Source of the DNA: Meandrina meandrites
Lineage: Eukaryota; Cnidaria; Anthozoa; Scleractinia; Meandrinidae
NCBI GenBank assembly: GCA_963693305.1
Contig: OY855905.1
Coordinates: forward strand, 5,239,201 to 5,303,200
DNA: 64,000 bases
Direction: 5' to 3'
Position 1 is the first letter of the stretch. Each line of letters begins with the position of its first letter. The position numbers were made by a program, and so were the translations under genes. Below, in pieces: positions 587 through 57,400 of this stretch. The notes beneath the pieces were generated by a model that saw only the letters and a program-made list of their open reading frames with translations, ran no database searches and was not told the DNA's origin.

Positions 587-658
587 GCGCTTACACAATA
601 ATCAGTTAAAGAACTTGCCATCTGGAATTTTTGACAAAAATACTCGACTGCAGAAGCT
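587..658 (+). CDS. LRR exon 1 (B type)
   Basis: Acceptor gatag, donor gtaagt, 72 nt, phase 2-2. Encodes one LRR beginning [10 protein letters not shown]. Base-for-base identical to the exon at 7591-7662. Confidence 0.88.
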
Positions 659-3600
659 GTAAGTATTGTTATTAATCAGTATCAAGATCTGATCTTCAAG
701 ATCTGCTGACCATTTCTTTATAGGTTCTTAAGAAACAATCAGTTAACGAACTTGCCATCAGGAATTTTCGACAAAAATACATTTGCCGCAACCATGTTAC
801 ATTTCAGTTCTGCAGTAGAAAATATTTTAAGTTTTATACAATATTCGCAATTTAACAAGCAAAACGGGTAATCAAACAAGAAAAGAAATGGTTGGTAGCT
901 AATTAGTTGGGCTATTTTCGTTGCCAAATATAAATTGGATTCTTCTTGTTACATATTTATTAAAAAACAGTTGTAAGGTTAGCTGAGAACCAAAACACGA
1001 AAGCATTTATTATCTGCTGGGCTTTTCTTAAAAGGGACTTAATTGCAAGTGTAGCAAGTATAGCTTTTGTCTGTTTCATAAGCAGTTTCACTCGATTTCT
1101 CGTCATCAAATTTCAAGTGAAGTCTTTTTGTTCCCGATCAATTAATTTGTCGTAATCTTGTAACGTTTTTAATTCTGTAATGTAAAATAATTTAAGTTTG
1201 GGAAACGTTTGGTAACTTTTTACAAAAAAGACGTGATTAGTTATCCAAGAACCAAATTAAGCCTTAAAAAACAAAAGCTTTTTTTTTAATATTCTGTGGC
1301 TGTTTTTTACTAGAGACTTATATATGGGGCGATAAATGTAAAAATATTATTTAAGCATATTTTCCCTATATGTTTTCCTATTTAACAAATGTCATATAAG
1401 TCGTCTTGAAATTTATAAATAACACGTGAGTCGACTTGTCATTTATAAATGCGATTTATAAATCGCTAGAAATCTATCTTTGCAATTTATAAATCGTAGT
1501 CTCTGAATCTCTGTGATTTATAAATGGCAAACTTTACAACTTTGCTATTTATAAATCGCAAGATACCTAATTTTGCAATTTATAAATTGCAGAAAACCAA
1601 ACTTTGAAATTTATAAATCACAATACACCGAACTTTTGTACTTTTGCGATTTATAAATTGCACACTTTGCGATTTATAAATCGCGAATGCGTAATTCATA
1701 AATCGCAAATGTGTGATTTATAAATCACAAATGTGTGATTTATAAATCGCAAATGTGTAATTTACAAATCGCAAATGTGTGATTTATAAATCGCAAATTT
1801 GCGATTTAAATGCGAACTGTTTTCTGTAAAACCGCAAACGAAATAAACGTATGACCGCGTGCTCGTACTCCAACAGAGTAATTTGGCGGAAAAATTTAAG
1901 CGGGAAAATCTTTATCTACATTTTTCACTATGGCGGATATGGACGACTTCGCGAGGAGGCTTTCGACAGCAGTGTCTAGAGCGATCACTGAGGCCCTTGG
2001 TGCGCAGGATTCATCTCCACAAATTCAGGTAGTGATAGATCTCTACTTTGTTTCATCGATTTATTTTGATTGCTAGTGAATGGATCCGTTTTCGTTACTC
2101 TCGACCTTGAGTCGCGTGCGTCATTTTAATGGGCCTGTTTTCTTATTTGCCGGGTTCTACTCCATCGGCTATCCCGCCTACCGTTCCATGTCAGGTTTGT
2201 TTAATTGTCACTGATTTTACCGGTATTGTTCCATTCAGTAATGAAGCTGCTAGAATATTGTATACCGTATTTGTCCAGATAATGAACTCGTTAACAAGGG
2301 TCGAGATATTCGCACGTCCTCCATAAATATGCACGAGTTCAGTCTGGAATCCTTTTTTGTATATTTATTGTACCGTCTAGATATAAGATATTCACTACAT
2401 GGGTGGTAATTTCTGATAATTTAACCTAGTTCCCTTTATATTCTAAATCCGTTTAACTGCTCACTTTTTGTAGTGAGTGCCCGGCGGGGGGGGGGGGGGG
2501 GGGGGGGGCTCCCATATGAAATGGGTCGGGATGTTGTCATTTCGCTTAAAATAAATCGATGAAACAAAGTAGAGATCTATCACTACCCGAGTTTTTGGAG
2601 ATGAATCCTGTGCACCAAGGGCCTCAGTGATCGCTCTTGATACGGCTGTCGAAAGCCTCCGCGCGAAGCCGTCCCTATCCGCCATAGTGAAAAATGTAGA
2701 TAAAGATTTTCCCGCTTAAATTTTGTCGCCAAATTACTCTGTTGAACTACGAGCCCGCGGTGCGCTTTTGCGATTTATAAATCGCAAATTTTCCATTTAT
2801 AAATCACACATTTGCGATTTATAAATCAAACATTTGCGATATATAAATCAAACATTTGCGATTTGTAAATTACGCATTTGCGATTTATAAATCACACATT
2901 TGTGATTTATAAATCACACATTTGCGATTTATAAATCACACATTTGCGATTTATAAATCACACATTTGCGATTTATAAATCACACATTTGTGATTTATAA
3001 ATCACACATTTGTGATTTATAAATCACACATTTGTGATTTATAAATCACACATTTGCGATTTATAAATTACACATTTGCGATTTATGAATTACGCATTCG
3101 CGATTTATAAATAAAAGGGTGCAATTTATAAATCACAAATGTTCGGTGTATTGTGATTTATAAATTGCAAAGTTTGGTTTTCTGCAATTTATAAATTGCA
3201 AAATTAGGTATTTTCCGATTTATAAACAGCAAAGTTGTAAAGCTTGCGATTTATAAATCACAAAGATTAAGAGACTGCGATTTATAAATTGCAAAGCTAG
3301 ATTTCTAGCGATTTATAAATTGCAAAGAGCTTTAAATGTGTTATTTAGACGACTTATATGGCATTTGTTAAATTGCAAAAAATATAGGAAAAATATGCTT
3401 AAATAATATTTTAAACATCTTGCGCCCAATACTTATATTCTATAGAACAATGCTAAAACATGTTTGAAAGCTGTTTAGTTAAAAATGGTTTAAAATTGTT
3501 TTCTTCGCTGAAGTTGCTAGCTGATGTTCGTGGACTTCAAAGTCAGCAAAACGAAAATACAAGTTAGAGCTTACTTGAACCTTTAAAACAAATTTTCTGT

Positions 3601-6600
3601 TCCTGATTTTCATTTTGTTAAATCTGATTTAATTAAATATATTTTGCTGGTGTGAATAGGGTATTACAATACAATCAGTTAAAGAACTTGCCATCTGGAA
3701 TTTTCGACAACAATACTCAGCTGACGGAACTGTAAGTATAACTTTTTGCTTTTTTCATATCCAGCAATAAAACATTTTTCGTCGCTAAATTGCAATTTAT
3801 TTCTTTATATTTCCAACACATGTATCGCAGCTATTTTTCCCTTTTCGGTTTGCAATAGAAACTACATTTTACACAATGTTGGTGCTTTACATAACATCGA
3901 AATGCTTGAGTAGTTAGCCGGGTATCAAAACACCTTTAGACACAAAACATATTTATTATGTGCTTGCCGTTTCTTCATAGGTACTTACACAATAATCAGT
4001 TAAAGAACCTGCCATCTGGAATTTTTGACAAAAATACTCTACTGCAGAAGCTGTAAGTACTGTTATTGATAAGTTTCATCAGCAACATTAGTCGGGCCAT
4101 TTTCGTCGCCAAATTTCAACTGGATTCTTCGCCTTTCCGATAAATTTTTCGTAATCATTTTCTCTTTTATGTGTAGTTCTGCAGTTGAATTTTTTTAACC
4201 TTTAGGTAATTGTGATGCTTAAAAAAGGCTTGAGTAGTTAGTCTGGTGACCGTTTCTTTATAGGTTCTTAAGAAACAATCAGTTAACGAACTTGCCATCA
4301 GGAATTTTCGACAAAAATACTCAGCTGCAGATCTTGTAAGTATAACTATTTGCAAGTTTCATAACAGGAATATGCTTATTTTTCGCCATCAAATTTCAAC
4401 AGGATTCATTTTATTTCCAATAAATTTGTCGCAACCATGTTACATTTAAGTTCTGCAGTAGAGAATATTTAAAGTTTTATACAATATTCGCAATTTAGCA
4501 AGCAAAACGGGTAATAAAACACGAAAAGATATCGTTAGTCGCCATTAGTCGTGCTATTTTCGTCGCCAAATATAAATTGGATTTTTCTTGTTACATATAT
4601 ATTAAAAAAAAACAGTTGAAAGGTTAACTGAGAACCAAAACAGAAAAGCATTTATTATCTGGTAGGCTTTTCTTAAAAGGAACTTTATTACAAGTGAAAT
4701 AAGTATAGCTTTTATCTGTTTCATAACCAGATTCAGTCTATTTCTCGTCATCAAATTTCAACTGGAGTCTTTTTGTTTCCGATAAATTAATTTTCCGTAA
4801 CCTAGTTACGTTTCCAATTCTGCAATATAAAATATTTTAAGTTTAGGAAACGTTTGGTAACTTTTAACAAAAAAAGGCGTATAGTTATCAAAGAACCAAA
4901 ACAAGCCTTAAAAACAAAAGCATTTTCTATTATTCTGTGGCTGTTTTTTACTAGAGACGTATACCCTATACGACAGTGCTAAAACATGTTTAACCCTTTC
5001 AGTGCGAAAGTCGACATTTGTCGACATTTGGAGGAGTAGTCATTTAACCACTTGTGACGTCATCAGTTTAAACGTCAATCAATTTTTCAGATAAGCAACT
5101 GACACAGCGTGGATTGATCTTTCCATAGGACCATGCATTTGCTATATCGACTGCATTCTGATGGAGCTAATCGAAAAAACAGGCGGCTGCGTTTTTGGTG
5201 CAAAATCGGTGCATAAACAGGTCAACACACCTGTAATTGATCAACGTCCCCTTTTCAGGGTTTACCGATGATTTTGTCCGAACTTATCCTGCCAGAAAGT
5301 AGGAGGTGAAGAGTAGAAATTAACGAGGATAAGAAAGCAAAAAAAAAGAAGGAAAACGCGCAAGAGAAAATTTGGAACGGATTCAGCAAAGTCCAAATTT
5401 TGGCTTATGCGCATGCACCAAAGTAAAAAATTATACATTGTTACACGGAATCTCTATCAAAATGTTGCTGCGATGTAAAAAAAGTGCTTTTATAGCGAAT
5501 TTTGGGCAAAATTAGCATCATAACAACAAAAATTGGGTTAAACGGTTAAAATACCGCGTTTTTTTGGGGGGGGGGGGGAGAATTCAGCAGTGAAAGGGTT
5601 AAAAGCTGTTTAGTTAAAAGTGGTTTAGAATTGTTTTCTTCGCTGAAGTTGCTAACTGATGTTCGTAGACTTCAAAGTCAGCAAAATGAAAATACAAGTT
5701 AGAGCTTACTTGAGCCCTTAAAAAATTCTTTCTGTTTGTTTTCTGTTCCTGATTGTCATTTTGTTAAATCTGATTTAATTAAATATATTTTGCTGGTGTG
5801 AATAGGGTATTAGAATACAATCAGTTAAAGAACTTGCCATCTGGAATTTTCGACAACAATACTCAGCTTACGGAACTGTAAGTTTAACTGTTTGCTTTTT
5901 TCATATCCAGCAATAAAACATTTTTTTCGTCAGCAAATTGCAATTTATTTCTTTATATTTCCAACACATGTATTGCAGCTATTTTTCCCTTTTCCGTTTG
6001 CAATAGAAACTACATTTTACACAACTTTGGTGCTTTACAAAACATCGAAATGCTTGAGTAGTTAGCCGGGTATCAAAACACCTTTAGACACAAAACATAT
6101 TTATTATGTGCTTGCCGTTTCTTCATAGGTACTTGCACAATAATCAGTTAAAGAACTTGCCATCTGGAATTTTTGACAAAAATACTCTACTGCAGAAGCT
6201 CTAAATACTGTTATTGATAAGTTTCATCAGCAACATTAGTCGGGCCATTTTCGTCGCCAAATTCCAACTGGATTCTTCGCCTTCCGATAAATTTTTCGTA
6301 ATCATTTTTACTTTTGTATGTAGTTCTGCAGTTGAATTTTTTTAACCATTAGGTAATTGTGATGCTTAAAAAAGGCTTGAGTAGTAAGCTGAGAACAGAA
6401 ACATATATTTTCAAGATCTGGTGACCGTTTCTTTAAAGGTTCTTAAACAACAATCAGTTAACGAACTTGCCAGCAGGAATTTTCGACAAAACTATTCAGC
6501 TGCCGATCTTGTAAGTATCACTATTTGCAAGTTTCATAACAAGCATATGTTTGCTAATCAGATTGCATGCTTATAGAGTTCGACATTTCCTTTCTTTACA

Positions 6601-9600
6601 AAAGGAAGGGTGTAACGAGAGGTCGGTCATGCGAAATCTCATAAGTTATTCATTCTAGCCCATGTGCTTAGAAGGCCATGTTACATAGCGGTTAGCGGGT
6701 TCGTTGGAGTTGTTCACTTGTATGTGTTGTGTTCAATACACCTTGGGTTACAATCAAATGTTTTGTGTTGGCTGAACTACGTCTCACAAACAACCCCAAA
6801 CTTAACAATAGGAAATTTTGGTGCTTTACAGAACAACGAAATGCTTGAGTTAGCAAGTCGAATACCAAAACATCTTTATTATCTGATAACCTTTTCTTGA
6901 TAGGTACTTACACGGAAATCAATTAAAGAACTTGCCATCTGGAATTTTTGACAAAAATACTCGACTGCAGAAGCTGTAAGTATTGTTATTAATCAGTTCC
7001 ATCAGCAAAATTAGTCTGACCATTTTCGTGGCCAAATTTCAACTGGATTCTTCTCATTTCCGATAAATTTTTCGTAAACATTTTCTCTTTTGTATGGAGT
7101 TCTGTAGTGGAATTTTTTTTAACTTTTCGTGGACTTCAATCTCAGCAAAGCGAAAATACAAGTTAGAGCTTACTTGAACCTTTGAGAAATTCTGTCTGTT
7201 TGTTTTCTGTTTCTGATTTTTATTTTGTTAAATCTGATTTAATTAAATATATTTTGCTGGTGTGAATAGGGTATTACAATACAATCAGTTAAAGAACTTG
7301 CCATCTGGAATTTTCGACAACAATACTCAGCTGACGGAACTGTAAGTATAACTTTTTGTTTTTTTCATATCCAGCAATAAAAGATTTTACGTCGCTAAAT
7401 TGCAATTTATTTCTTTATATTTCCGACACATGTATTGCAGCTATTTTTACCTTTTCGGTTTGCAATAGAAACTACATTTTACACAATTTTGGTGCTTTAC
7501 AAGACATCGAAATGCTTGAGTAGTTAGCCGGGTATCAAAACACCTTTAGAAACAAAACATGTTCATTATCTGCTTGTCGTTTCTTGATAGGCGCTTACAC
7601 AATAATCAGTTAAAGAACTTGCCATCTGGAATTTTTGACAAAAATACTCGACTGCAGAAGCTGTAAGTATTGTTATTAATCAGTATCAAGATCTGATCTT
7701 CAAGATCTGCTGACCATTTCTTTATAGGTTCTTAAGAAACAATCAGTTAACGAACTTGCCATCAGGAATTTTCGACAAAAATACATTTGTCGCAACCATG
7801 TTACATTTCATTTCTGCAGTAGAAAATATTTTAAGTTTTATACAATATTCGCAATTTAACAAGCAAAACGGGTAATCAAACAAGAAAAGAAATGGTTGGT
7901 CGCTAGCTAGTCGGGCTATTTTCGTCGCCAAATATAAATTGGATTCTTCTTGTTACATATTTATTAAAAAACAGTTGTAAGGTTAACTGAGAACCAAAAC
8001 ACGAAAGCATTTATTATCTGCTGGGCTTTTCTTAAAAGGGACTTAATTGCAAGTGTAGCAAGTATAGCTTTTGTCTGTTTCATAAGCAGTTTCACTCGAT
8101 TTCTCGTCATCAAATTTCAAGTGAAGTCTTTTTGTTCCTGATCAATTAATTTGTCGTAACCTTGTTACGTTTTTAATTCTGTAATGTAAAATAATTTAAG
8201 TTTGGGAAACGTTTAGTAACTTTTAACAAAAAAGACGTGAGTAGTTATCCAAGAACCAAATTAAGCCTTAAAATCAAAAGCATTATGGGGCGCACAAGTT
8301 CTACAGACTGGACCTATACAAATAGACAAAACATTGAGATTAGAGAGACATAAAAACATGAAATATTAGGCACACAAGAATGTTTACAAAGTCAGTTATT
8401 ATCCATGTAGTTCTGTCACGAATAAAAAATATCAACGAAGACCAGCAAACGCATTGACTCGAATTTAAACTCTATTTTGAACTTCTTAGCACAATAAATC
8501 TGCGTAGTTACATCACATATGCGTTCTATATATAAAACTCTTGGTTTTTACATGTCTAGAGGACATAATAAACAGGAACAGAATGTACATGTAGAGTTTA
8601 TAGCGTGCTGGTTTGCTTGAACTTGCATCGAAGATCACACACTTCAATTTGGTTTGTTGGACTAATTTTACTATCAAATAGAATAACTTTCACTTACTTC
8701 GCTAACAGCAGACACAAACTCTCTTTCCATTGCTTCAAGGCCTTCTAAAAGATCCAAAATCGTCTCTAAATCGTCACCGAACATGAATAAACCTTCGTCG
8801 GCCATGTTGACAACACGATCTGTGCAGGGTCAGTGTCACGTGACGGGACCGTTCAACATCGGAGACGCGCTATCGTTATCGTTCTTTGAAGTTCGCCGGC
8901 TTTCATAACCAGTATCCTCTACTAACTATGTTTAAAGCCAAATTTTGAATTTTGTCTCTAATGATCAGATTAACTATTATTATAAAACAAATCATTATTT
9001 GAAGACAACCTTTTCCTAACTGCAGCAATTTCCTACAATTAGAAAAAATCCATGCATTTGAAGTTAATTTACGAGCTGCATTGTTTGTGTCTCAAGCATT
9101 GAAAGTTCGTAATTAATGCTAAAGAGCAGTTCATCGCTTCTGGAGACGTCGATGTCCTCTATTTCATCTGCGAGTGTTCTTTAGGGTTATTTCTTACCAT
9201 TTTGAACTCCATCAACAGGGCCCGCGCAGCAAGATTTTGAGGGGGGGGGGGGGGGGGGGCTAAACGTGAATGTGTAATCATTAGCCAACTTGAGGGGTTG
9301 GAGGGGTCCGGAGGCATGCTACCCTGAGAAAATTTGGGTTCTAGTTACTCTCAGGTACCGGAAGTTGGATTTAAAATTAACAAACAGTGTAAAGATACAA
9401 ACGTTCAGTGCTTAAAGCGAAATGTTTTTACAACTTGAAACAGCAAGGGGCCACAAACAACAATGCTGCTGACACGTAGGATCTACAAGAGATTATTGCA
9501 ATGTATTTGTGCTGGCCTTAGAGCTGGCGTTATTTAGATTTGCTACACCGCGCTGACAATTGCGCTGATGAGTCACAAAAAGGACGAAACAGCTGTCCGC

Positions 9601-12600
9601 GATTGCAACCCTGCTTTGTCGGTTCTGGTCGTGTTGGTGTTTCGCAAAGTTACTTTTTCACGTAGTATCAGCCTTGCTATATTATTGTAACGTTTTTACA
9701 GTATAAGTATACCAAACCTTTATAACCAGACCTATAGATTTACTATCGAATCCTGCTTGAAACAATATGATTTACTCCAAATCAGTACTACTGCCATTAG
9801 CTTTTACAAACCAGGAATCCGACGATTTTTGCTATAATTCAGCCTAATCAGAATAGAAATTAACAACGACTAAAATTTTAGTGCAAATTAGATTCTTTAA
9901 AGATGCCGAAATTTCTCTTTCTGTTATTGCTACGATCAGCAAATTCTTTAGCGATGCCAAAAAGTCATTCTTCATGACTGTTTATCATTGTCAGGTTGCT
10001 AAACCTCTCTGCCTGCGTGAAACCAGCTTCTGGAGAGGCGTTCAAATGAAATACTTTAGTAACTGTTCGTCAACAATATTTTGTTTCGTTTTTTTTTCTC
10101 TCTTTAGTTGCTTATTTACTTAAGTTCTTCTTATTTTTTCTTTTTAAGTAAAAAAGTGGGGGGGCTAAAGCCCCCCCCCCCCCCCCCCCCACCAGCCCCT
10201 CCCTCTGCGCGGGCCCTGATAAAGGTTATCTTGTTTGCACCTGGCGAGAAAAATCGTCTTGAAAATTTAGAACGGCTCGTTTCTTGAAGGTTTCATAAAA
10301 GCAAGCTGCTCATTGGATAACATTTAGCTTCTTGCAGAAAACGATCACTTATTTGGTGATTCTTGAATATTCCCGATATCTGAACCATCGATCGGTCGAA
10401 CGAACGAACGAGCCATGGATGGAACGTAGCAAAATTACTGAATGCTCCAATAATCTGCCTTCTACCAACACTAATGCTCCAGCAGTAATATTAGTTTCCT
10501 TAAAGGTCAAATGAACCAAATTTTCGACATTCTTTCTTTTGCGATTTTAAAGCAACCAAATGCTAAAAGAACTCATTATTAAGTAAACTTAGGAGGAAAT
10601 TTTGCTTTCTGAGCCTTAAAGCGCGAACTATAGCAAAATCTACGAAGATTTTCGAAGGCTTCACGAAAACGTTTCCAAAATGATCGCGCACTGGAATGGA
10701 AGGAGTGGATCGATCTTTGAATTTTGTGACGTAATAGTTTTGCGATCGAGAGGACGAATAATGTAAAGTTTGAGAGTTTGAGTCAGTCTGAGTAATTCAA
10801 GTAATTCTGAAAGGACCTACGTTTTTTTAAAAACATGGTAGTTATATTTTTTACTACACTGGAATCTAGTTTAAAAGATTAATAAGTATTAAAGCACTGA
10901 GTAAAATTGTAAGCATTGTGCGATATAGGAGGATTTCAAACACTGGATGGCTAATAAAAATCTTCAGTTCGCTCAGCTTGGTATCAAACAAAGAATTTTG
11001 TTATACACCTCAACTGAAATGCAGTTTTTTTTGGATTTGCACGCAATTATATATAATCAGGACGTGTACGGCTTGAAACCCGGATCGGTATGAGCGCGAA
11101 ATTATTCTAGGATGTGACCAAAAGCTAAGATTGTATTCACTATTTTCTTTTTCGTACTCGAGAGTCACACAAAACACACAAATAAATTGGTAGACAAAAA
11201 TTTAACTTCAATGCAAATTCGAAACCGCAAACCATCACGCAGGGTAAAACTTTCTTGAATGAATAAATTCGTGTCGTTTTCAGCCGAAAGAAAATTCAGT
11301 GGTGAATGTGAATAATAAATACAGAGCGTTTACCGACTGTCTCCGCGGACACTGTGAGGTTTGTTTCTATTACCTGTAGTGTTTATAGTCCATATTTTGG
11401 CCACAGAGACGTAAGTTCTATTACCTGGTACATATTAACATGCGTCAAAAACACGTCTCAAAAAGCGTGCACGTGGAAGCTGCATTATTCGGTGAGGATA
11501 TTGAATCGATACTGAAGTTGATATTGAAGTTGGCAATACTTGCCAAGCCAAACCAACCAAATAAAAGTGCTAATAATCATAATAAAAATACTAGCAAGCC
11601 CCAGTTATGAATATTCCTTACTTCCAACTTCCTACATTAAGCAAAAGATGAACAAACAGTTGTACGTAGTCTCTCTGTTCGTCGGCGGGCATTCTTCGCC
11701 GTATTTAATTTTCTGATCAAAAAGTAGTTGGGACTGCATCCTCTTCAAGGTTAAGTCTTAGAGACTTGAAGGTAGAACGCAGAAACCTCCTTACTGACAG
11801 ATTTTGTTTAATACAGTTTTCAGTGAAATGAGCCGCATAAATGCGTGAGTGTTTGTTTTGGTTCAAACAATTATCTTTTCATATTTACAACCCAACGTTC
11901 TCTAAATTTTGAATCTTCAGAAAACTTAAATGTACTTACTCTAGACTTTGCGGTATTATTTCAGTTTATTGCTGCTCAAAACACCATGATCTTCCGCTTT
12001 AAACGATGTCACCGACTTGGTGAACTTCAGAACTGAACGGTTTTGAATTCCCCGGAATCTTAATGTCACCAACAGTGACGTCTTAGTTGCGTTTCCGACA
12101 ATATCCCGACAATTTTTCCGACTGCTCCACGATTATGAAGGCCAAAAATAAGCACTTTTAAACTTGCAATATCTCTGCGATGCAAAGTCCAATTACTCTG
12201 AAACTTCAGAATATGTTTATTTGGCTCTTAATTAACAGATTGGGTAAAAATAAAGAAAAATCAAAATTTTGGTTCATTTGACCTTCAATAAAATGAAATT
12301 CTCTACTAATTTGTTTCGACTTATTCACTTAATGCTTTCTTCCTTGATAGGGAGTTGGGCAACAATCAGTTAAATCAATTATCACCTGGAATTTTGGATA
12401 AAAATACTCTTCTGTGGTGGCTGTAAGTATAGCTATATATTACTTTCATGACCACCATTAGTCAATATTTTGTCCCCAGATATCAATGAGATGGGTCCTT
12501 TTTCCCATAAACGTAACGTGGCCATGCCATCTTGTTAGTTCCTAGGCAATTTTGGTGCATTTTATTTCATTTTATTTTTTTAGTATAAGTAGTTCAATGA

Positions 12601-27142: not shown

Positions 27143-27173
<31 letters not shown>

Positions 27174-30100: not shown

Positions 30101-30458
30101 CCTCCGTTTTGAAAAAATCCGTGCATTTGAAATTGATTAACGAGCTGCACTGTTTGTGTCTCAAGAATTGAAATTTCTTAATTAATTAATGCTAAATAGC
30201 TGTTCAACGCTTCTGGAGACGTCGATATCCTCCATTAAGGTGTTGCTTGGCGAGAAAAATCGTCTTGCAAATTTAGAAGGGCACCGTGCGAGACGCCATT
30301 ATACGTTCCTTGAAGGAATTGTAAAAGCAAGCCGCTGATTAGATAATATTTAGCTTCTTATAGAAAACGATCGTTTATTGGATGCTTCTTGAATATTCCA
30401 GATACCCGAAACATCCATCGATAGATCGATCGAGCGAACGAACGAACGAACGAACGAA

Positions 30459-30489
<31 letters not shown>

Positions 30490-45400: not shown

Positions 45401-48400
45401 AATGCACTTCGCACATTGGCGCAATAGTTTAGTTTATTTTCTTGGTCGCACAAATTTACATTTACAAAAAAAAAAACATTTAATAGCAAGAAAAAGAAAC
45501 AAAAAACCGTGCGACAGGAGGCAGAAACAGGGCAAAGCCCCAATAGTCACGTTGAAATCGTTGAGAAATTATGAATGAGGCCCTATTGGCCTCATGGACT
45601 AGTATCGGGTGAAGGAAATTTTAGGATAACGTTAACTTTATGATGATCAGCATGATTTCCTAACATTCAAGACCATTGTGTTATTCTGGTGTAACTCATA
45701 GACGGCTTTTCCTTGTTCTATCTTTTATAAATCACTAAAAAAATACTTCACTGTAGTAGGCAAATTAATTATTAATTCAAACTCTGTCGAAAGGACTTAG
45801 TGGAGATAAACCGACGTTTACCGTAAAACACTGAAAACTGCCGAAGATTGAAACATGTCGTTTCATTTCCAAAAGCAAACCAAAAATTTAAGATTGTATA
45901 GCATTCACTTTGAAGCGAATATTCTGAATCTGCGTTGCATAACATCATTTGATTGTTACCCAGCGCCAAAATAAGAATTATTAAATATGGAGTAGATTTA
46001 TCTGAAGGGTCTAAGCAAATAACTGCCGATTTTATCATTACAAACACTTTCTCAGATAGTCAGATACATGCTCATGCCTCTAATTTGAATGGTTTCTTTA
46101 AATCCTGAAAACTCGTATATTCTTTTCAGAGATCTGTCTAATAACCAACTGAAGATTTTACCACCAGGACTTTTTAGTAGCCTCAAAACACTCACGAAGC
46201 TGTAAGTAGAGCTGAATAAGACGACAAACAAATATACAGGTCACCAACTGAGGAAAAATGTGTGACCGATCTGGTTTAATCCTATTTTCTTTCAGTGCTT
46301 CACAAGTTGTTAATAATTCTTATTTTACCAAAAATCGCAAAACAAAGTCCAGAACTGCAAAACAAACAAAAGAGTAACTCATTATTTAACGCTCAAGTTT
46401 TATTATAGTTGCAGCCCAATAGTAACAATGGTAACTATTTTTTGGTGTTTATTGATAATCGCAAAACTTCAAATGCAGTTTTCAAGATTTTAATTATTTG
46501 AAGCTCTCTAGGTAGTGAAACTATTCAGAAACATTTTGTGAAAACCAGACCACCGTTATTGCCCCGAAATACACCATGCAACGACCACGATCTGCAGTAA
46601 TTCTGAGTGCTTAATTTCATGATCGAAACCACAAATGTTAATAAAATCAAAGATAAGCTCTGCTTTCTAAACGTCTTGCATACCTTCTTCAATGCTAGGC
46701 TTTTGCTCAATAATAAAATTGAGGATTTACCAGCAGAGATCTTTGCTAACCTAACCGCGCTAAAGACACTGTAAGTGAGACCACCAATAAGGACAACTAA
46801 AAAGAAAAAATTAATTTAATTTCAATGTTTTCGTATGTCAGGTCTATTCGAAATGTGTCTGTACGATTTTCTTGTTTTGTTACAGTCAAACAGGGTGTTT
46901 TGTGCGCTGAATTTTACAATGTCTCTGCGTGATGTCCTGATATTGATTGACAATTTGCTCGAAGCAACATGCAACGTTCAGTTGCAAATTTCCTCCAACA
47001 CGTTGCCAAGCTCCGTTCAAACTTCGGGCCTGTACCGCTTTCATTTCTCCGCAGTATGAGAAAATCAACTAAAGCCAGAACATCTGGCGTTAGTTTAATT
47101 TGTTAAAACAAACATGGCTACTGATCTCGAGGTCAATCTCTTTCTACATTATGTAGGAATAACAAAATGTCAATCGCTTGGTTCATCATGCATAAGGAAT
47201 GAACTGTGTGTCGCGAACCTGAACTAGAACGATTAATACAACACGTATGAAAATAACACCTTCGTTGCAGAGAGAGAAAATAATTTTACTGTTGACTGTT
47301 TATCAACAGGCTGCCAGAACATAACGACAGGTTGAGCTCAAATAGCAAACCCCTGATTGAAATTGAGAACATAAGCCGCAACTTACGGAGCAAATTTGAA
47401 TTTTGACTGTTATAACTATTTACCAGACACTTTTAATTAAATTGGTTAGGAGACTGGACCAAAATAAACTCAAGAAGCTCCATCACAAACAGTTTCATGG
47501 ATTGGTGAACTTATATGATCTGTAAGCAAAGTCCTCTTTTGTAAGCCTTGACTGTTGCCTCTAGAGATTAGATAACCAAATAATCAAACTTAACAGTTTT
47601 CAAATTATTTCAATCTCCCCAACGTCAACTCTTTTTTGGAATCATAATGCCACAATATCATTATAGAAGAATCTCGGCGATCCGGTCAACAACTCACCTA
47701 AAAAATCTGACCTTTTTAAACAGGGTGGCCGCATTGAGTGGCCAATGAAGTGGCCGTGATAACAATCGAGATGACTCTCCTTAAGACCATTGGGCGGGTT
47801 TCCAAGGCATTAGAGTTCATTCACCTTTCTGTCTGTCTGTCTGTCTGTCTGTCTGCCTGCCTGTTTGCCAGTCTGCCTTTCTGTCTTAATTTTTCTGTCT
47901 GTCTGTCTATCTGTCTGTTTGTCTGCCTGCCTGCCCTCCTGCCCTCCTGCCCTCCTGCCTCCTGCCCTCCTGCAGGCAGGCAGGCGCCTGCCTGCCTTCA
48001 TGTCAGTCTGTTTGTCTCTCTGTCTGTTTAGCCCTTTCTATTCATTTTATCATGGTCTGCAGCAGAGCTATAATTCGTGTTGCCGAGTATTTCATTAATT
48101 AATTTATTTTTTTCTGTTTGTTTAAGCTACCTTTCCGATAACAAACTTCAGAAATTGCCACGAAGAATTTTTAAAGGCCTCAAGAGCCTTTTGTCAATGT
48201 GAGTACATTTCTTTTATTCTCGTTGGAGAACACGTGCTACTGAATTTACTTAACAGTAGTCCAAACACTAGTTTCACCAATCTTCTACCAAACAGCAAGT
48301 GATCAAAAGTAGTAGGCTTAACCTCTGTCGCATTTTTATCTTTGTTCCCCTCTATTTGTCGCAGCAACATGTTTAGCAATAAACTGAGCAGTGTTTCCAC

Positions 48401-51400
48401 TCAAACGTTTAATGACATACCTGATTTACGGTTTCTGTGAGTATAAAAAAGATCATTACCACATACATCTTTTCGATTTTCTTTATATTCCATTTAGTTA
48501 TGAAGTATATTACGAGTTTAGGGATTTTAAAAGGATTAGACTATTTCCAATAGTGATTATGTTCACCAGATGTGGTTATAACGGTGAATGTATGTATATT
48601 ATACTTATTGGGTTAGGGAGGTAATAATACACATACACAAATTTCAGCAAGCTCATTGGTTGAGAGCACGTCAATTAATCCCAAACAGTGCAGAAATTTG
48701 AAATTGAGTGCAGAAAGTTGAAATTAAGTAGATAAGTTGATTGACAGGGAAGCCGCGAAAGTGCGCAAAACAAAATGGCGGCCGCTGTCGGAGGGTTTGG
48801 AGAGAACAAAAACAACCAATTAATGCAAAGTTAGACCGATTTAACGGAAATTATCAGTGTATAAACTAATATACTAGCAACTGGACATTTGTACAGCACA
48901 AAATAGGCTCTACGAAACTACCAACGAGGATTTTCTTTCGCGACAACTCGTAAAGAAGGAAGATTACAAGCCTGAATTGAAGTTGCACATTTCAGCTTAT
49001 TCCCATGTAACTGAATGAGGATAAAAGCACCTGATAATGCATGACAGAGCTTTAAAATTCTGTAGCAGTATTGGATTTACAAAGCTTGGCAACTCCGTAA
49101 TGTTTTAACAACGATTCGGAAAGGTAAGTGACCGAACACGCCATATTTATTTATCATCCACTTCCAGACCACAGAGAAATTTTTGTATGTGTATTATTAA
49201 CAAGTAATCACATGATTTTTCTCGTACAATTTGGGATAAATCAGCACTCGTAAATTTTTCAGGCTCGTACAATTTGGTTAGCCTTTGAAAAATTTACTCG
49301 TGCTGTTTTATCCCAAATTGCACTCGAAATCATGTGATTACCTATACGAACACATCTTGTTCACCCACTTCTTCATCCACTTACAGAGAAATTTTTGTAT
49401 GTGTATTATTTTTCTCGTGCAATTTGGAATAAATCAGCACTCGTAAATTTTTCGGGCTCGTGCAATTTGGTTAGTCTTGGAAAAATTTACTCGTGCTGAT
49501 TTATCACAAATTGCACTCGAAATCATGTGATTACCTATACTAATAGTGCAGGTGATAACATGGAACCAAGTAAAATTACGGATTAATATCACACGTGTTT
49601 TTAGAAGTTTTAGAAATTTCTAAAACTTCTGTAAGCACAAGCGATATTAATCCTGAATTTTACGAGGAAAGATGTAATTACATTTTTGTGACATAAATAA
49701 CGTTCATATAAAAATTTCAAGGCGTGAAGCTAAATTTAGCCGTCGGAACGAGAACATTCCTTTCTAAAATCACACAGAAAAACAGCATGATCCAGCAAAT
49801 TCTTACGTTAAGAACAGGATAGGGTTGGTAGCTATATAATCATTAGAACGAGCATCAGCAAATATCACCGGGGGCGCGCAAAATGAAAAAAGTCAGAAAT
49901 TCTCAAATTTTGCCAGAATACTGTTTAGTAGAACTATTTTTAAAACAAATGTTTTAAAGTGGCTTGCTACAGTTTTGACGGGGTAAATGAGCTTCAGAAA
50001 AGTTTTAGCTTTCACTTATCACCGTTTGTTGCATCCAACGACCAATATTTGCGAGCAATATAGATGCCAATAAATAGGCAAAATGAATATCCGAGGGCTT
50101 AAGGGGAGACTGGGCAGTAGTAATTTCAGGGGTGTTTTTAATTAAAATCATCCCCTACGACTTTACCTCAAAGATTCTGAAATTAGATATTGGATCAGAT
50201 GAAACATTCATGCAAAATTAATTAAAACATCAGTAAGACAGATTTTTTTTGCAAAATACGAAAATTTTCCCGATTAAAAAAAAAATAGGTCAAAATCTGT
50301 TTTACAGATTTTTTAAAAATTTTGGCTGTGGACGCGATTCAGTCCAAAAAATAATTGTGAAAGTTAAATTATGAGATGTACGGTAGGTTTTTTGATCATT
50401 TTTAAGCCGAAATCAGGTATTTACGACCTCCAACGAGAATCGACTAGCGTATGCATTTTTATTTGAGCGCGCGCTTCTATGACGCCACATGATATGTGCG
50501 ATGAAAAAAGCAGCAAATAAGAAGTCCTTGTTCGGTTGTTTATCTACCTATTTTTAGTATTTTTTCGTCCTATGACATGTCTAAAAGCATTTTGAAACTT
50601 TTAACTTTTGAATGAAGAGCTCAAACTTGTTTTCGTTTCTTTTATTGTTGCTACCTAAAGTTTTCCGCTCGCGAGCAATATTGACGTCAGGCAGCCGAAT
50701 CGTAGCGCGCGCTCTTGCCTTGTAAAACTGTAGTAAGCCACCTTAAATCAACCACACACAAAAGTGACTCTGAAGTTGGGCAAAGTAATACAAAGGATTC
50801 TCTTTTGCTCAATCAGAAGCCAGCATTCGAAGAGCCGTTTGGAAATGGTCCAGAGAGACTCGTTTTCCAGGGGCTCATTCCACTTTTATAGAAAACTTTC
50901 TCCGCTACGATTTCTGTTTACTTCGTTTTGCCCCGAGTTATTGCCCCTGGGTCTCCGAGGATGACGACATCTGAGAGCTTAGCTCTCTAAGGGCGCTTTC
51001 GTTTGGGAATATTCTGGAATAAGAACATATTCTGCTCCTGGGAGCAGAATAGCCGGAATGGAAATCCAAGTATTCCGGAATAGGAAGACCAGCCAAACGA
51101 ACGCTAACTTGCATTATTCCAATTATTCTTATCCCGGATCTATCCCAAACGAACGCGCCCTAATATTCTAATCACAAAGTTTTAGTGGCTCACGCAGAGG
51201 AAGACCTTCAAGAACCTGCGGATGCCTTCACTCGTGACTACGATGTGCTAAGCCTCGCATTTAATGCTCCGAAGATACAAGTTCTATTCCAGCCATCACC
51301 TCCCCACATGCTGAGATAAAATAGCTAGAGATCACAGTTGGATAGCAATGCCTAAATCAAATGGTACAACAGACGAACCAACAGTAGTCTTTTGGAGGGG

Positions 51401-54400
51401 GCTTATGTCACAAGTATCCAATCCTTCATTACAGGAGCCAACTTTGTTGGGGTGATATAAAAACGAAAACCCTTTAAAAATAATCTGAAACGCAACCCGA
51501 GGCAATGCGGTACTAACACCGGCAACTTGGAGCACCAGGCCACCGACAGACCTGGCTTGGGAAATGCTATCCATACTGGCATAGCGCACGATGAGCAACA
51601 GAAAGAGGAACACAGTGAGAGACTCCGTTTAGCGAAAAGGAGAGGAAACAAGCTCCCAGCACAGCTACACCTTCTACAAACTTCAGATGCCTCGTATGTC
51701 TGCGAATTTTCGTTTCGAGAAACGGATTGCCCCGTCACCAACGAATTCATAAGCTGAGCACTGCCAAGAAGACATTTTACTCGTAATCGAGCGATTGCCA
51801 ACGAGGGCGATACAACGCATGAGTCAGGAATTACCACAAATGAACAAAAAGTCACAGTGAAACAATTAACACATCATTGAAAAGAGGACAAATTGCTTAA
51901 CAATTTAAACGGTACATGAAAAAGGTGACATCAAACATAACATTTTCAGGATTTTTAGGGGATATTTCGTGCCGTTCTCAGCACATCAAAAAATGGCGAA
52001 TTTTAGAGCGAAACAACTCAACTTGATGCATGGCGCGGTGTTATAAAAAAACATATATCCCATCGAAAGATCAGCACATTTTCTTCAAATAAGTGCAATA
52101 ATTTTTTTTGTGCTACTGCGAAATGCGCGAGATGCAAGCAGGTACAGAGCTCGAAAATTGTTATTTCCTGAACGGTATGAATCTGTTAAGTTGACAGTTA
52201 AAAATCGCACTTTGGTTCGCGATCTAGTGTTAAGAAAATATTACCCAGCGAAAGAGGAGAATTTTTCCTTGAAATGCAGCAAATGGGAAAATACTTTTGG
52301 GCCACTAAAACAAAAAAACATAGTACCAAGTGGGTACATGAGTCTAATGCGTCACGGCTTGTTAGTGCGGTTGAAATATGTATTTACAGCATAGAGCAAG
52401 AGGTGTATCAGAGGTTTGGTAGTAAGAGTGGTTCAGAAGAAGTCGATAATATTTGTTCTCTTAAGTATATATATTTATATATATTTATTCATGTTAAAAG
52501 ATTAGTGCGTTGTAGACCACAGGAAGATCGTACAGATTTAGAAGGGGGGGGGGGATCATGAAAAATTTGTTTGCAAAAGCAAAAAAAGCCCAACTAAATT
52601 TTTTGCAGGCATAAAAAAATTGTCTGCAGGAAGATGACACCGGAAAAAATGTTTTCACAGACAACGATACAGAAAAAAATTGTTGCTTGGAAAAATTTTC
52701 ATCCCCCTACTTCCAAAAAAATAATGGTCCGCCCCATAGATAGACAAGATACAGCCACTTATTTAGTATTCTAAATATCCTAAATCACGTCAAAATAAGC
52801 CAAAATATATTTTTTTTCAATTCCTTTGCAATTTATGCAATACTGCTCAACAAAGATTTCAATTACCTTTAACGTTTTGACACAGGGGAGCAAAGAAAAC
52901 ATTGCGTGCAGAATGTAATTTAATTAAGCGAAATATTTTCACGTCTATTAAACACTACAAGCAGTTGAATGAAAGAGTTTCGTTTTCATGACTGAGAGCA
53001 GCTTCCAAATAGTCAATACATGGAAATAACAATCAGATCGGAATTCAATAACTATTAAAGCGAGTTTTCATTCCGCCTTAACTACTTTTTTGCAAGTTTC
53101 AATATTTGTGCAAATTTTGCGCGAAATGTAATTTGATTACACTGTCTTGTTTTTAAGCTCTAGATTGAATCTTGAATGGTGAAGAAAAAACTCTTTTTAA
53201 TGAAAGTTGCATTCTGTGAATGAAATCCTGCTTCAGTTGAATTGAACAATCAATTGCTGACTACAATTTTATTTAATTTTCCACTTTTTTTAAAGTTATT
53301 TTTTGTTTATGATCGACACAATTGTCACTTCCGGAATTTTTTCATCAAAAGATGTCGATTTCACGTTGCGTTTCCCACGGATTATAAAAAAACATGCAGC
53401 TGGAAGGAGAACATTTTCAGTGGCTTCACACTTGAAAACGAGGATTCATATTTTTTTGCACTGTAAAACATTTATTCCAATTACATACATGACAATTTCT
53501 TTTACAAGTGCGTGTCGTGCTCGAGCTCCGTTCGACCGTTGCTTCGTTAACAACGTCCTTGCTTCCTGATCACCGCACCAAGCCCGCAATGAGGCGGGAT
53601 ATTGTTTAAGCACAATTACACCGGACGATTATCGATCCCGAACCATTCCCTTGGGATTGCTAACATAGAGTCTACATAGAGTCTAAAGCGCATGCGCATT
53701 AGACTCAAAAATTGATAGGATTATATGTAGGTGTTACTGAGTCCCAAAAATCCTTGCACATCAAATTGCGTGACACATCTTTAAAGCGAAAGCCCAGATA
53801 TTGATACCTTTTCATCAAATAACTCGGGAAACTGAAGTCAAATTCCAGAGCGAAGTAAACGCGAGCGCTGTATTTGAAACTATTGCCCAAAACCCGGCCG
53901 TTAAGAAGCCAAATAAGTGCAGCGCGTTCAGCGAGTAAGAAACGAGCAATTTTCCTGCCCGTCCAATCCGAATCAAGTAATTTTGCCACCTGTAGACAAA
54001 AAATTAACGAAAATACCCTCTGTCTCAGCCAATTAGCATTTAGTAATTATGCTCACTATTCAATAAATAAATAGATTTAGGTATATTTAATCGGCAACCA
54101 TATGTGTATTCTTGCTAAGTAGGCTTTGGGCAGAATAACATATTTACTAATACGTACCCGGTATATCATTTACATTACCTACAAACGTCAGTTTTGCTTG
54201 CGTTCGTTTAATTTGCAGATTTATGCATTACAACGAGATGTACGAGCTACCAAAAGGCTTTTTCAAGGAGTTAAAGCAGATAATGAGAGTGTAAGATAAA
54301 CAATTGATCACGATTTGACCAATAAGATGTCTAACATAACCAGTAAAGTCGTAAAATGAATTAAGAAGTAAATATTTCACATGCGCGTGAATCGCTTTTG

Positions 54401-57400
54401 TGGCGTCCGCATTTCTTTTTCACTTAAAGTAGTTGATAAATTAATTATTTTTAAATTAAGTTTTGATGAATGTCAACATCAACTTTCTACAAAGTAAGGC
54501 ATATGAAAAAATACAAAAGGTATCAAACTAACACGTTTTCTGGTAAAAATTATTAGCTATAACATTGCAAAATTTATGTCACGAAACACGTATCTTCAAC
54601 ATAACGAATATGTTCATGTTTTAATGAATGCACCTGGAGAAAAAGATGGCACGCGTAAAGCTAAACACTTTCCCAGGTCTGCGCTTTGGCTTCCGTGCTT
54701 CTCTTTTGCTTCACCGCCTTTCCGCGTTCATCCATTACTCAGGAAAAGAACACTGAAAAATGAAAACTACGAGCTCAACAACGTAACTAGGAGTATACTG
54801 TGTGTGAAGATCTGGTGATGGATAATTATGAAATAGCGCTTGCTGACTGTTTATATTTATCGTAATGCATGCATTTTGTGCATTCCAGGACCCTGGACAC
54901 TAATCTGATGTGCTGCCATATGCACAAGGAGGACGCTGACTGTACCTTTCCGTACGACGACAACTTTGCTGATTGTGAGAGCATGTTCAGGAATTCAGCT
55001 CCTAGGAAGAGTATCTGGGCTATCGGAGCTTTGTCGATTGTTGGTTCTGTGTTTGTTCTTACCTGGCGAACAATCTTCAAGGAAAAGAACGTGGTGCAGA
55101 CCATTATGCTAATGCATTTGGCGGTGTCTGATGGCTTGATGGGCATATACCTGATCACAGTGGGCGCCAAAGATTTGTTGTGGTCAGGAGAGTACTATCT
55201 GCATGACTTTAAGTGGCGCACTGGAATGCTTTGCCAGATAATTGGAGCTATCTCTTTGTTGTCTAGTGAGGTGTCTTTAATGGTGATGTCTCTTATCTCC
55301 GCTGACCGGCTGAAAAACATCGTCTTTCCCTACCAAGGCAGTGCTCTTACCCGAAAAATGACCCATGTTGTCTGCTTCATTATATGGTGTGTTGGCTTCC
55401 TGATTGCATTCATTCCGATGTTTGGCATTGGTTATTTTGATGACCCCTTCAGGTATCACACGTACTACGGACGATCTGTGGTGTGCCTGCCACTTCAGCT
55501 CACTTCTGATAAGCCCGCGGGTTGGGAGTACTCTGTGGGTGTCTTTGTTGGTTATAATTTTGGCTTGTCTCTCTTTATCATGGTGGCCTATGTTATGATA
55601 TTCTTCAAATCCTATTTGTCAAGCAGGCGTATGGCCCGCCAGGGTACTGAAAGAGAGATCCAAGCGAGGTCCCAAGCAGCCAATAACAAAAGGGAAGCTG
55701 CACTTGCTAGGCGGGTGTTTTTCATTATTCTCACTGATTGTTTGTGCTGGATGCCCGTGATTGTCATCGGACTCAGGTCCACCTTGGAAAAGTCTTTTAC
55801 TGCTCCAGGAGACCTTGCAGTGTGGATCGCTGTGTTTGCTCTCCCGATTAACTCGGCCTTGAACCCTATCCTGTATACATTGTCAACACCACAGGTATGA
55901 GACAATTTCTCTTTTCCGTATTAATTACTTATATTTGATTAAATTAGATAGAAAAACTATTAGTATAATTGAAAGCGAAAGCACCATAAGTTCTATCGCG
56001 AAGCCAGGTCAGTAGGTCGGTTTTTTTCTGCGTGATTATTCAAGACAAGACAAACCATAAAATGGAAATGCTTTTCTTTTATGTTTTGGTTTAAGCTAGA
56101 TTTAAGTGTGAGTCAACATCACTACACTAAAAGTTAAAAAATAGTACCTAAACTGCACCCAATTGTATGATCGATGACACAGTCTTGATAGGCGAACTTT
56201 ATCGTTAAACTTCCTTATATATCTTTCACACAGGTTCGAGGGATCTTAAGAGACAAAATAGCAGTTCTGTGGGGATACTTGAAGAGCATTTTCTTTTGTT
56301 GCCCTCAACACAAGGAAGGTTAAGTGCTATGCTCCTACTGTTGTTCTAATTTCTTACGACCTTAATTTTATAGTGAACTATAAGTTATAACCCATATTGA
56401 ATGTATTAATATGAAATAATTGAGGCTTTGCTTAAGATTTTTTGACATAATACAAGGGATGCTAACCTGCATACACTACAAGCCGTTCAGAACTTCGCAT
56501 GTGGTATCGTGAGTGGCGCTATAAGAAATTCGAGCGCGTAACGCGCGTATGGTGTGTAAACGTACGACTTGAAATTAAATTCAAACTATTTGGAAATACC
56601 ACTATTCAAGACGGTAACTGGTCAAAGAACGTTCCATTATCGAGCCACCAAAACATGGAACGTGCTTTGATCTGCAGTTACTGCATTGCAATACTATTGT
56701 TGCCTTCAAGAGACATGTTAAGATTAAACTTTTAAATTAATTTTTTTGTAAATATTCTTTTTTTTTTAGCTGTTAATTTTTAATCACTAAGGATTTCTTT
56801 AATTAACAACAGATGTTTATAATGTAGATGTACCTATATACCGTCCGGGGGGTACTCTCATAAATTTGGGATAGGGGTGTGCCGCGAAGGTTCTTAAACC
56901 CTGACCCTATTTAAGGATAAAGAAAACGAAAATTGGTACCCTTTTTAAGGCTCAAACCAGAAAAATGACAACCTATTCAAGGAAAGGAAAAGCGTTGGGT
57001 GACGATCCAAATAACGGCTAACCGCACACGGCAAAACACAAATCTTCTTTTTTTTTTTTAATTTGTTACGTTTAGTTAGGCATTTATTTTAGCTGATAGA
57101 ATTTAGGTACCCTATCTAAGGATAACACCGGGAACATAATGTCAAAAGGAGCAAAAATGATACCCTATTTAAGGACCGAGAACCTCAAAAACCATACCCT
57201 ATCCCGCGGCACATACCTATATAGCCCATATATGGGGGTACCCCCCCCCCCGGTATACCGTTCCTGAAAAACCCCTATGGGAGGTTAAGTGAAGTATACA
57301 GTATACAGTACATAAATCAGGCTTGCTAAATGTTGGACTACATTCATTATATTGCGAATCAACACGTCGCCATGGACAAGTTTCATTCCAATACTGAATA

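Follow-up and report, generated by a model that had tools for sequence, protein, structure and literature searches.

Receptors that diversify by swapping leucine-rich repeat (LRR) modules are best known from the variable lymphocyte receptors (VLRs) of lampreys and the resistance genes of plants, and vertebrate RXFP genes are built of exons that each encode a single LRR, followed by one large exon for the seven-transmembrane (7TM) domain. Type C1-like receptors also occur in cnidarians (PMC4079206, available text), LDLa is termed distinctive of type C receptors (PMC11863921, available text), and among published placozoan and anemone LGRs there are both CUB domains and large LRR counts, Tadh-LGR-15 having 34 (PMC9545775, available text). 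In the snail Biomphalaria sudanica, the SudRes2 region, linked to schistosome resistance, contains 12 GRL101-like genes for LRR-bearing G protein-coupled receptors (GPCRs), according to the accessible part of PMC12297450. Here we analyse a 64,000-nucleotide stretch of the genome of the coral Meandrina meandrites (the window; C3:5239201-5303200 in a 551-Mb assembly of 56 contigs), within which a sequence-only reading had recognised an RXFP-type receptor gene with an oversized array of single-LRR exons. We hold with moderate confidence that this gene codes for a CUB-Ig-LRR-7TM receptor, in which a constant signalling end is combined with a germline-variable LRR recognition arm that likely diversifies ligand binding.

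The coral gene resembles RXFP1 and RXFP2 (type C1 LGRs) in possessing single-LRR exons ahead of one large 7TM exon, in having a 7TM exon whose sequence is closest, among solved structures, to RXFP1, and in belonging to an anthozoan clade that is sister to bilaterian RXFPs. It differs from them in its CUB and Ig domains, in the failure of our searches of the locus to find LDLa, in a 5′ array that varies between paralogs, and in its 34 intact LRR exons, as compared with about 7–9 LRRs in RXFPs (PMC9545775, in the text available). With SudRes2 it shares a clustered arrangement of LRR-7TM genes bearing extra extracellular binding domains; SudRes2 haplotypes differ structurally, and LDL and C-type lectin domains are found in its proteins, as far as the accessible text describes them, whereas the coral genes carry CUB and Ig and vary in LRR exon number. 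GRL101 and other type C2 receptors also have multiple LDLa repeats, while no LDLa was found at the coral locus (314 kb). The presence of CUB and a very high number of LRRs are features shared with placozoan and anemone LGRs, so that oversized arrays are not new as such in this receptor class, given the 34-LRR placozoan LGR; the available text of PMC9545775 describes no cluster that pairs a constant end with a variable LRR array. The coral array repeats also match lamprey VLR modules (VLRA, E 1.6e-41), with LRRTM, Toll-like and other LRR chains scoring higher, and as in VLRC (PMC3900441, available text) the predicted concave face is where variability concentrates. VLRs are assembled somatically from germline cassettes by a deaminase. 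Unlike them, the coral genes have intact germline exons, which would be spliced, and a 7TM effector, and we saw no evidence of somatic assembly; the completeness of the exons, splice sites included, speaks against a need for it. A literature search, whose coverage left most subscription papers and preprints outside, returned no cluster of coral LGR genes whose number of LRR exons varies, and no receptor cluster that joins a constant signalling end to an LRR-exon array varying from gene to gene.

The LRR exons and the tandem gene cluster

The sequence read comprised 314 kb of continuous DNA (C3:5119201-5433200), in which genes 3 and 4 are separated by a stretch containing 2,500 consecutive N, together with 10 kb of gene 5; positions are given in window coordinates, negative values lying upstream, unless prefixed by C3. 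LRR exons were identified by scanning for 72-nucleotide exons with AG/GT borders and an LRR frame, after which intact exons were used as probes. This revealed 29 LRR-type exons in the window, 26 of them intact, which raises by one each of the two counts given previously (28 and 25) and leaves in place the size and phase described there: all are 72 nucleotides long, begin and end in phase 2, and lie on the plus strand. The same scan over 264 kb yielded no reverse-strand LRR exon scoring 7 or more. Three exons in the window are damaged, one (6129) through a change of its donor GT to CT and two (724 and 7728) through replacement of the 3′ end; the latter pair passed the scan rule by virtue of a chance GT downstream and were set aside by hand. 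The exon pairs 587/7591 and 3660/7270, previously reported as identical, do match at 72 of 72 nucleotides. The array does not begin at 587, as had been supposed, since the gene has a further eight intact LRR exons (spanning -6933 to -550) and four damaged ones upstream of the window, up to 6.9 kb away. Exon -3590, whose donor is GC and whose frame is open, was scored as damaged and is possibly still usable. With 34 intact LRR exons in total, the gene bears out the description of its array as oversized.

The window gene is the second of five in tandem. Copies of its 7TM exon at C3:5214742, 5294069 (the window), 5347777 and 5431477 are 99–100% identical, and a fifth, at C3:5503093, is 78% identical to that of the window. 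A CUB head precedes each of the five on the same strand (C3:5138738, 5229626, 5306668, 5364247 and 5444071), and Ig and LRRNT exons were present in all four genes checked for them. Genes 1–4 were read from head to 7TM, and gene 5 through the 10-kb read. Repeat number varies between these neighbouring paralogs, genes 1–4 having 21, 34, 23 and 32 intact LRR exons. The differences are confined to the 5′ array, which contributes 10, 23, 12 and 21 intact exons respectively, while each of the final 11 LRR exons, like the 7TM exon, has a single counterpart in every one of the four genes. The figure of about ten LRRs quoted earlier for RXFP or type C receptors thus suits the constant block of 11 and not the gene as a whole.

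Array turnover and constraint

Recent duplication is evident in all four arrays read, in keeping with the earlier description of the array as still duplicating. The array of gene 1 contains an internal copy of 2.6 kb (99.1% identical), that of gene 2 one of 0.93 kb (97.9%), that of gene 3 two units of 1.5 kb (99.0%), and that of gene 4 three units of 1,516 bp (99.7–100%, two of them being 100% identical). All of these carry LRR exons, and across the four genes they sit at three different places. Genes 3 and 4 have one cassette in common (99.2–99.7% between genes), and the first doubling therefore probably predates their split or was exchanged between them; the third unit belongs to gene 4 alone. 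Identity also changes along the genes. The first 6.6 kb read of gene 5 is 99.5% identical to gene 3, despite the 78% identity of its 7TM exon to that of the window; genes 4 and 2 agree throughout the CUB-Ig stretch (100%); and in mid-array gene 4 matches gene 3 at 99.1–99.7%, as compared with 95.9% between genes 3 and 2. On this pattern the genes are mosaics of exchanged segments. Between LRR exons 724 and 3660 lie satellite-like arrays of 22- and 31-bp units (1450-3327), which may possibly aid unequal exchange. Elsewhere, an intron of gene 1 (C3:5151049-5164879; -88151 to -74321) holds several near-identical units (99.86–100%) at a spacing of about 2,755 bp.

We then compared the array with the constant block for signs of selection. 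The donor GTAAGT is found in 61 of the 66 intact array exons, and among 40 distinct array exons the pooled ratio of nonsynonymous to synonymous rates (dN/dS) was 0.26–0.52 for divergences above 15% and 0.44–0.74 below. As a yardstick, exons were paired by the similarity of their flanking introns, intron divergence was taken as neutral and the genealogy was included, which gave 45, 55 and 62 pairs at three cut-offs. The concave face was defined as repeat positions 1, 3, 4, 22 and 23, an assignment that we take from the general LxxLxLxxN rule of LRR structure. In the array, the rate of change relative to introns was 0.53, 0.29 and 0.32 for off-concave codons (P 1e-2, 4e-10 and 7e-16) and 1.79, 1.28 and 1.08 for concave codons. 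The corresponding values for the constant block were 0.48, 0.28 and 0.21 off the concave face and 0.97, 0.41 and 0.31 on it. The array thus retains the LRR framework but frees the predicted binding face, while the constant block holds both framework and concave codons at two of the three cut-offs. Sequence entropy points the same way: the five concave positions of the array have 2.56 bits, as compared with 1.06 for the remaining positions outside the framework (in an exact permutation, 3 of 6188 arrangements do as much), and four of them are the four most variable positions, position 4 ranking under position 8, whereas little separates the two classes (2.80 versus 2.44) across the 11 old exons of the constant block. 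Of three gene pairs compared, genes 2 and 3 alone show a ratio of nonsynonymous to synonymous changes that differs significantly between the array and the constant part (P 0.011).

Two earlier possibilities were set aside in the course of these analyses. Strong positive selection had been suggested by a count within exons (16 nonsynonymous and no synonymous changes at concave positions; 11 and 12 elsewhere), but the intron-yardstick test did not uphold this excess, and we therefore claim relaxed constraint only. The 5′ array as a separate dead gene, a possibility against which the sequence-only reading was to be checked, is rejected on the off-concave constraint and the conserved splice sites; in each of the five genes a CUB head also precedes the array, in the same orientation.

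Gene ends, relatives and class

The missing ends of the gene were located by means of the heads and tails of Pocillopora and Stylophora proteins, of which P0010 and P0013 possess CUB and Ig domains N-terminal to their LRRs (Table 1). The CUB and Ig domains of the window gene are 31–53% identical to the pocilloporid heads (tblastn), with domain order conserved; in Pfam, CUB scores 22.0 against a cut-off of 21.4, and Ig_2 and LRRNT fall under theirs. Downstream, the gene continues in tail exons past 55894, where it had been thought to end, and its last tail exon was not found. Joined from CUB to the second tail exon through 34 LRR exons, the model encodes 1,442 residues without a stop. In this predicted gene model CUB, Ig, LRRNT, LRRs and 7TM stand together, as in the pocilloporid proteins P0009, P0010, P0013 and P0045. 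The single 7TM exon had been credited with RXFP hallmarks; it matches Pfam 7tm_1, and among solved structures RXFP1 is best (E 4.5e-54), as compared with 5.4e-24 for the thyrotropin receptor.

Table 1 Features of the window gene (gene 2), in window coordinates; negative positions lie upstream of the window.
Feature	Position	Strand	Evidence or remark
CUB	-9576..-9235	+	tblastn with P0010/P0013-type heads; splice sites and phases fit
Ig	-9128..-8880		tblastn with P0010/P0013-type heads; splice sites and phases fit
LRRNT	-8122..-8002		match to P0010/P0013-type heads; splice sites and phases fit
Array LRR exon, intact	587..658	+	exon scan; identical to 7591
Array LRR exon, damaged	724..795	+	3′ end replaced; runs to downstream stop
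Array LRR exon, intact	3660..3731	+	exon scan; identical to 7270
Array LRR exon, intact	3981..4052	+	exon scan
Array LRR exon, intact	4264..4335	+	exon scan
Array LRR exon, intact	5806..5877	+	exon scan
Array LRR exon, damaged	6129..6200	+	donor GT to CT
Array LRR exon, intact	6439..6510	+	exon scan
Array LRR exon, intact	6904..6975	+	exon scan
Array LRR exon, intact	7270..7341	+	exon scan; identical to 3660
Array LRR exon, intact	7591..7662	+	exon scan; identical to 587
Array LRR exon, damaged	7728..7799	+	3′ end replaced, like 724
Array LRR exon, intact	12351..12422	+	exon scan
Array LRR exon, intact	13916..13987	+	exon scan
Array LRR exon, intact	15678..15749	+	exon scan
Array LRR exon, intact	27344..27415	+	exon scan
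Array LRR exon, intact	28548..28619	+	exon scan
Array LRR exon, intact	29373..29444	+	exon scan; final exon of the variable array
Constant-block LRR exon 1/11	40837..40908	+	
Constant-block LRR exon 2/11	41079..41150	+	
Constant-block LRR exon 3/11	41870..41941	+	
Constant-block LRR exon 4/11	43834..43905	+	
Constant-block LRR exon 5/11	44893..44964	+	
Constant-block LRR exon 6/11	46130..46201	+	
Constant-block LRR exon 7/11	46699..46770	+	
Constant-block LRR exon 8/11	47450..47521	+	
Constant-block LRR exon 9/11	48127..48198	+	
Constant-block LRR exon 10/11	48365..48436	+	
Constant-block LRR exon 11/11	54219..54290	+	
Exon for hinge and 7TM, entered in phase 2 and left in phase 0	54889..55894	+	Pfam 7tm_1; best PDB match RXFP1
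First cytoplasmic-tail exon	56234..56318	+	45–48% identical to Pocillopora tails
Second cytoplasmic-tail exon, acidic	57547..57624	+	by-eye match to Pocillopora tail

A domain search for an LDLa upstream had also been called for, and it found CUB and Ig domains there instead. No LDLa match was seen among 7,828 open reading frames of at least 25 amino acids on both strands of the 314 kb, nor with a regular expression over 264 kb, and Pfam gives CUB, Ig and LRRNT instead; the LDLa searches could miss a module split across two exons. A model built from three LDLa segments had its best match at E 0.084, on the minus strand, and one built from 14 segments at E 0.96, as compared with 1.5e-22, 1e-10 and 8e-8 for three proteins left out of it.

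To place the receptor, a tree was built from 33 7TM domains, representing 28 hand-picked proteins of the 120 listed and five rows of the coral genome. The window 7TM falls within a ten-row clade (100/100), which comprises corals and a single row lacking a source name and is nested in a clade of 19 rows (100/99) made up of anthozoans and two rows without source names. The sister group of this anthozoan clade consists of seven RXFP-like rows from bilaterians (join 85/70; bilaterian clade 96/98), and two cnidarian rows bearing LDLa (P0040 and P0043) branch elsewhere. The assignment to the RXFP type therefore stands in part, the 7TM being nearest RXFP1 among solved structures and in a sister clade, and fails in part, since the gene lies outside the bilaterian RXFPs and has CUB and Ig domains and no LDLa that we could find. 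Given its anthozoan sister position and the LDLa result, we read the gene, from its sequence, as encoding an RXFP-related coral receptor of CUB-Ig-LRR-7TM layout and not a strict RXFP.

The nearest database proteins are often named GRL101-like; the three closest are Pocillopora P0001–P0003 (7TM identity 78–79%, with P0001 representing 19 member sequences), and the eight LRRs of P0001 correspond to constant-block exons 4–11. Identity to P0010 and P0013 in the 7TM is 63–64%. A homolog search with the head of P0010 listed 115 proteins, of which four, each belonging to Pocillopora verrucosa or Stylophora pistillata, cover at least 95% of that head and the others at most 51%; with the head of the window gene itself as query, none of 900 candidates was returned, a result that is uninformative, since the Pocillopora head does match the locus (tblastn).

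Further genes of this kind lie elsewhere in the genome. Beyond the tandem five, six full-length 7TM exons at 72–94% identity and 14 at 42–48% were found on C3, C5, C2, C4, C8 and C10, a list that points to a broad expansion of RXFP-like receptors. Other CUB heads, 68–74% identical to that of the window gene, occur at C3:6793785, 7556336, 8617317, 9050857 and 10395033, without a listed related 7TM exon within 200 kb; these perhaps belong to receptors with another end, or are the heads of secreted LRR proteins.

Several other elements were noted within and around the array. The LRR exon with a replaced 3′ end exists in four copies (724, 7728, one at 155123 in gene 4 and one at L034:8983 in gene 5), each of which continues for 24–38 residues beyond the repeat before a stop; tallied here as damaged, these are possible alternative terminal exons for a soluble form. 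A retrotransposon, seen as a 764-residue open frame with an RVT_1 reverse transcriptase domain (22812-25106, plus strand), lies in the intron that follows array exon 15678 and precedes 27344. Between array and constant block lies a retrotransposon of the long terminal repeat type on the minus strand (34255-38860), which has 104-bp stretches at 34255 and 38757 that are 98% identical and two open frames with reverse transcriptase and integrase domains. A long GAAG tetranucleotide repeat of 58.5 copies (60444-60803) is open in frames on both strands, and no gene is expected there.

Competing explanations and significance

On the reading that we favour, in which a variable LRR arm is carried on a constant signalling end, we infer that all intact exons of a gene are spliced into one transcript. 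Because each has 72 nucleotides and phase 2 at both ends, the reading frame would be safe upon gain, loss or skipping of an exon, and the product would have one 24-residue repeat more or fewer. Unequal crossing-over and gene conversion among the array cassettes would be the likely source of variants, since fresh duplications and mosaics are seen. Any binding would be relayed through the 11-LRR constant block and the 7TM to the same G protein. As for the ligand, an external or microbial one may be favoured, mainly by analogy with the snail GRL101 cluster and, also indirectly, because the concave face is freed and because a gene annotated RXFP2 is upregulated in Exaiptasia under Vibrio challenge (PMC6662555, available text). 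Entries from relatives bear indirectly on repeat number in transcripts. The Pocillopora verrucosa entries labelled isoforms X5 and X10 differ solely within the LRR region, by one block of 168 residues (7 × 24) and another of 28, and seem to come from one locus, as read from their identity elsewhere, other parts of their names being different. The annotated relatives P0010 and P0013 unite CUB-Ig, a run of about 16 and about 14 LRRs respectively, and the 7TM in one protein (counted by regular expression, a match inside the 7TM being excluded).

A number of observations weigh against this reading. For the window cluster the basis is the genome sequence, and the joining of exons is predicted from it. 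A convincing signal-peptide exon was not found, one weak candidate being present in genes 2 and 3, and P0001–P0003 have eight or nine LRRs without CUB or Ig. Positive selection is not established, the excess at concave positions having P values of 0.04, 0.15 and 0.38 at the three cut-offs, and the ratio of nonsynonymous to synonymous changes shows no significant difference between array and constant part for genes 1 and 2 or genes 1 and 3 (P 0.23 and 0.31). In addition, array exons decay: genes 1–4 contain at least 4, 5, 2 and 5 damaged LRR exons, plus three truncated ones, in a search whose probes were intact exons mostly from genes 1–3, so that older wrecks may escape it. Two damaged exons (donor lost, mostly with stops) are old, since they have counterparts in all five genes.

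Alternatively, the variation of the array could have little meaning, this being a hormone-type receptor whose LRR stalk tolerates any repeat number and drifts by unequal crossing-over. Similar tandem exons recombine spontaneously, damaged ones are evidently tolerated, concave codons change near the intron rate and not clearly over it, and a placozoan LGR with 34 LRRs has been published without mention of variability in the available text (PMC9545775). We nevertheless consider this explanation rather unlikely, as one part of the ectodomain varies while the other is one-to-one in four genes, the freed positions are not random and coincide with the predicted concave face, and the concave positions of the constant block are constrained at two of three cut-offs. 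It is still less probable that only the final 8–11 LRR exons work, the 5′ array being inert or rarely spliced in. The short LRR runs immediately before the 7TM in P0001–P0003 would fit such a receptor, as would the large retrotransposon-bearing introns within the array and at its border with the constant block (29.4–40.8 kb). However, P0001–P0003 begin within an LRR and show no signal peptide visible by eye, and for these reasons we judge them to be truncated models. Moreover, CUB lies upstream of the array in five of five units, with Ig and LRRNT in the four examined, the off-concave codons of the array are under purifying selection, and P0010 and P0013 are annotated as continuous from CUB-Ig through their longer LRR runs to the 7TM.

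The tandem copies and their array differences might, finally, be artefacts of assembly, such as unmerged haplotypes or mis-joined repeats. The copies are mostly 90–100% identical, the run of N interrupts the sequence between genes 3 and 4, and the matter is judged from the assembly; even so, we regard this as very improbable, given that four near-identical 7TM copies with a fifth at 78% in line are more than two haplotypes can supply, that identity changes segment by segment, that many substitutions separate the array copies, and that diverged relatives with like heads exist elsewhere in the genome. An extension of the favoured reading, in which the receptors would be combinatorial GPCRs whose arrays differ among cells or colonies through germline cassette turnover and frame-neutral splice choice, ahead of a single unchanging signalling end, sensing microbial, algal or allogeneic ligands, is in our view doubtful.

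If a constant signalling end is indeed joined to a germline-variable LRR arm, these GPCRs would represent a different design of recognition repertoire, and one in an early-branching animal. The copies lying side by side provide a natural experiment in which LRR binding surfaces grow by single-exon steps, and they make testable the question of whether corals may distinguish ligands, symbionts or kin by way of arrays that differ between genes and colonies.

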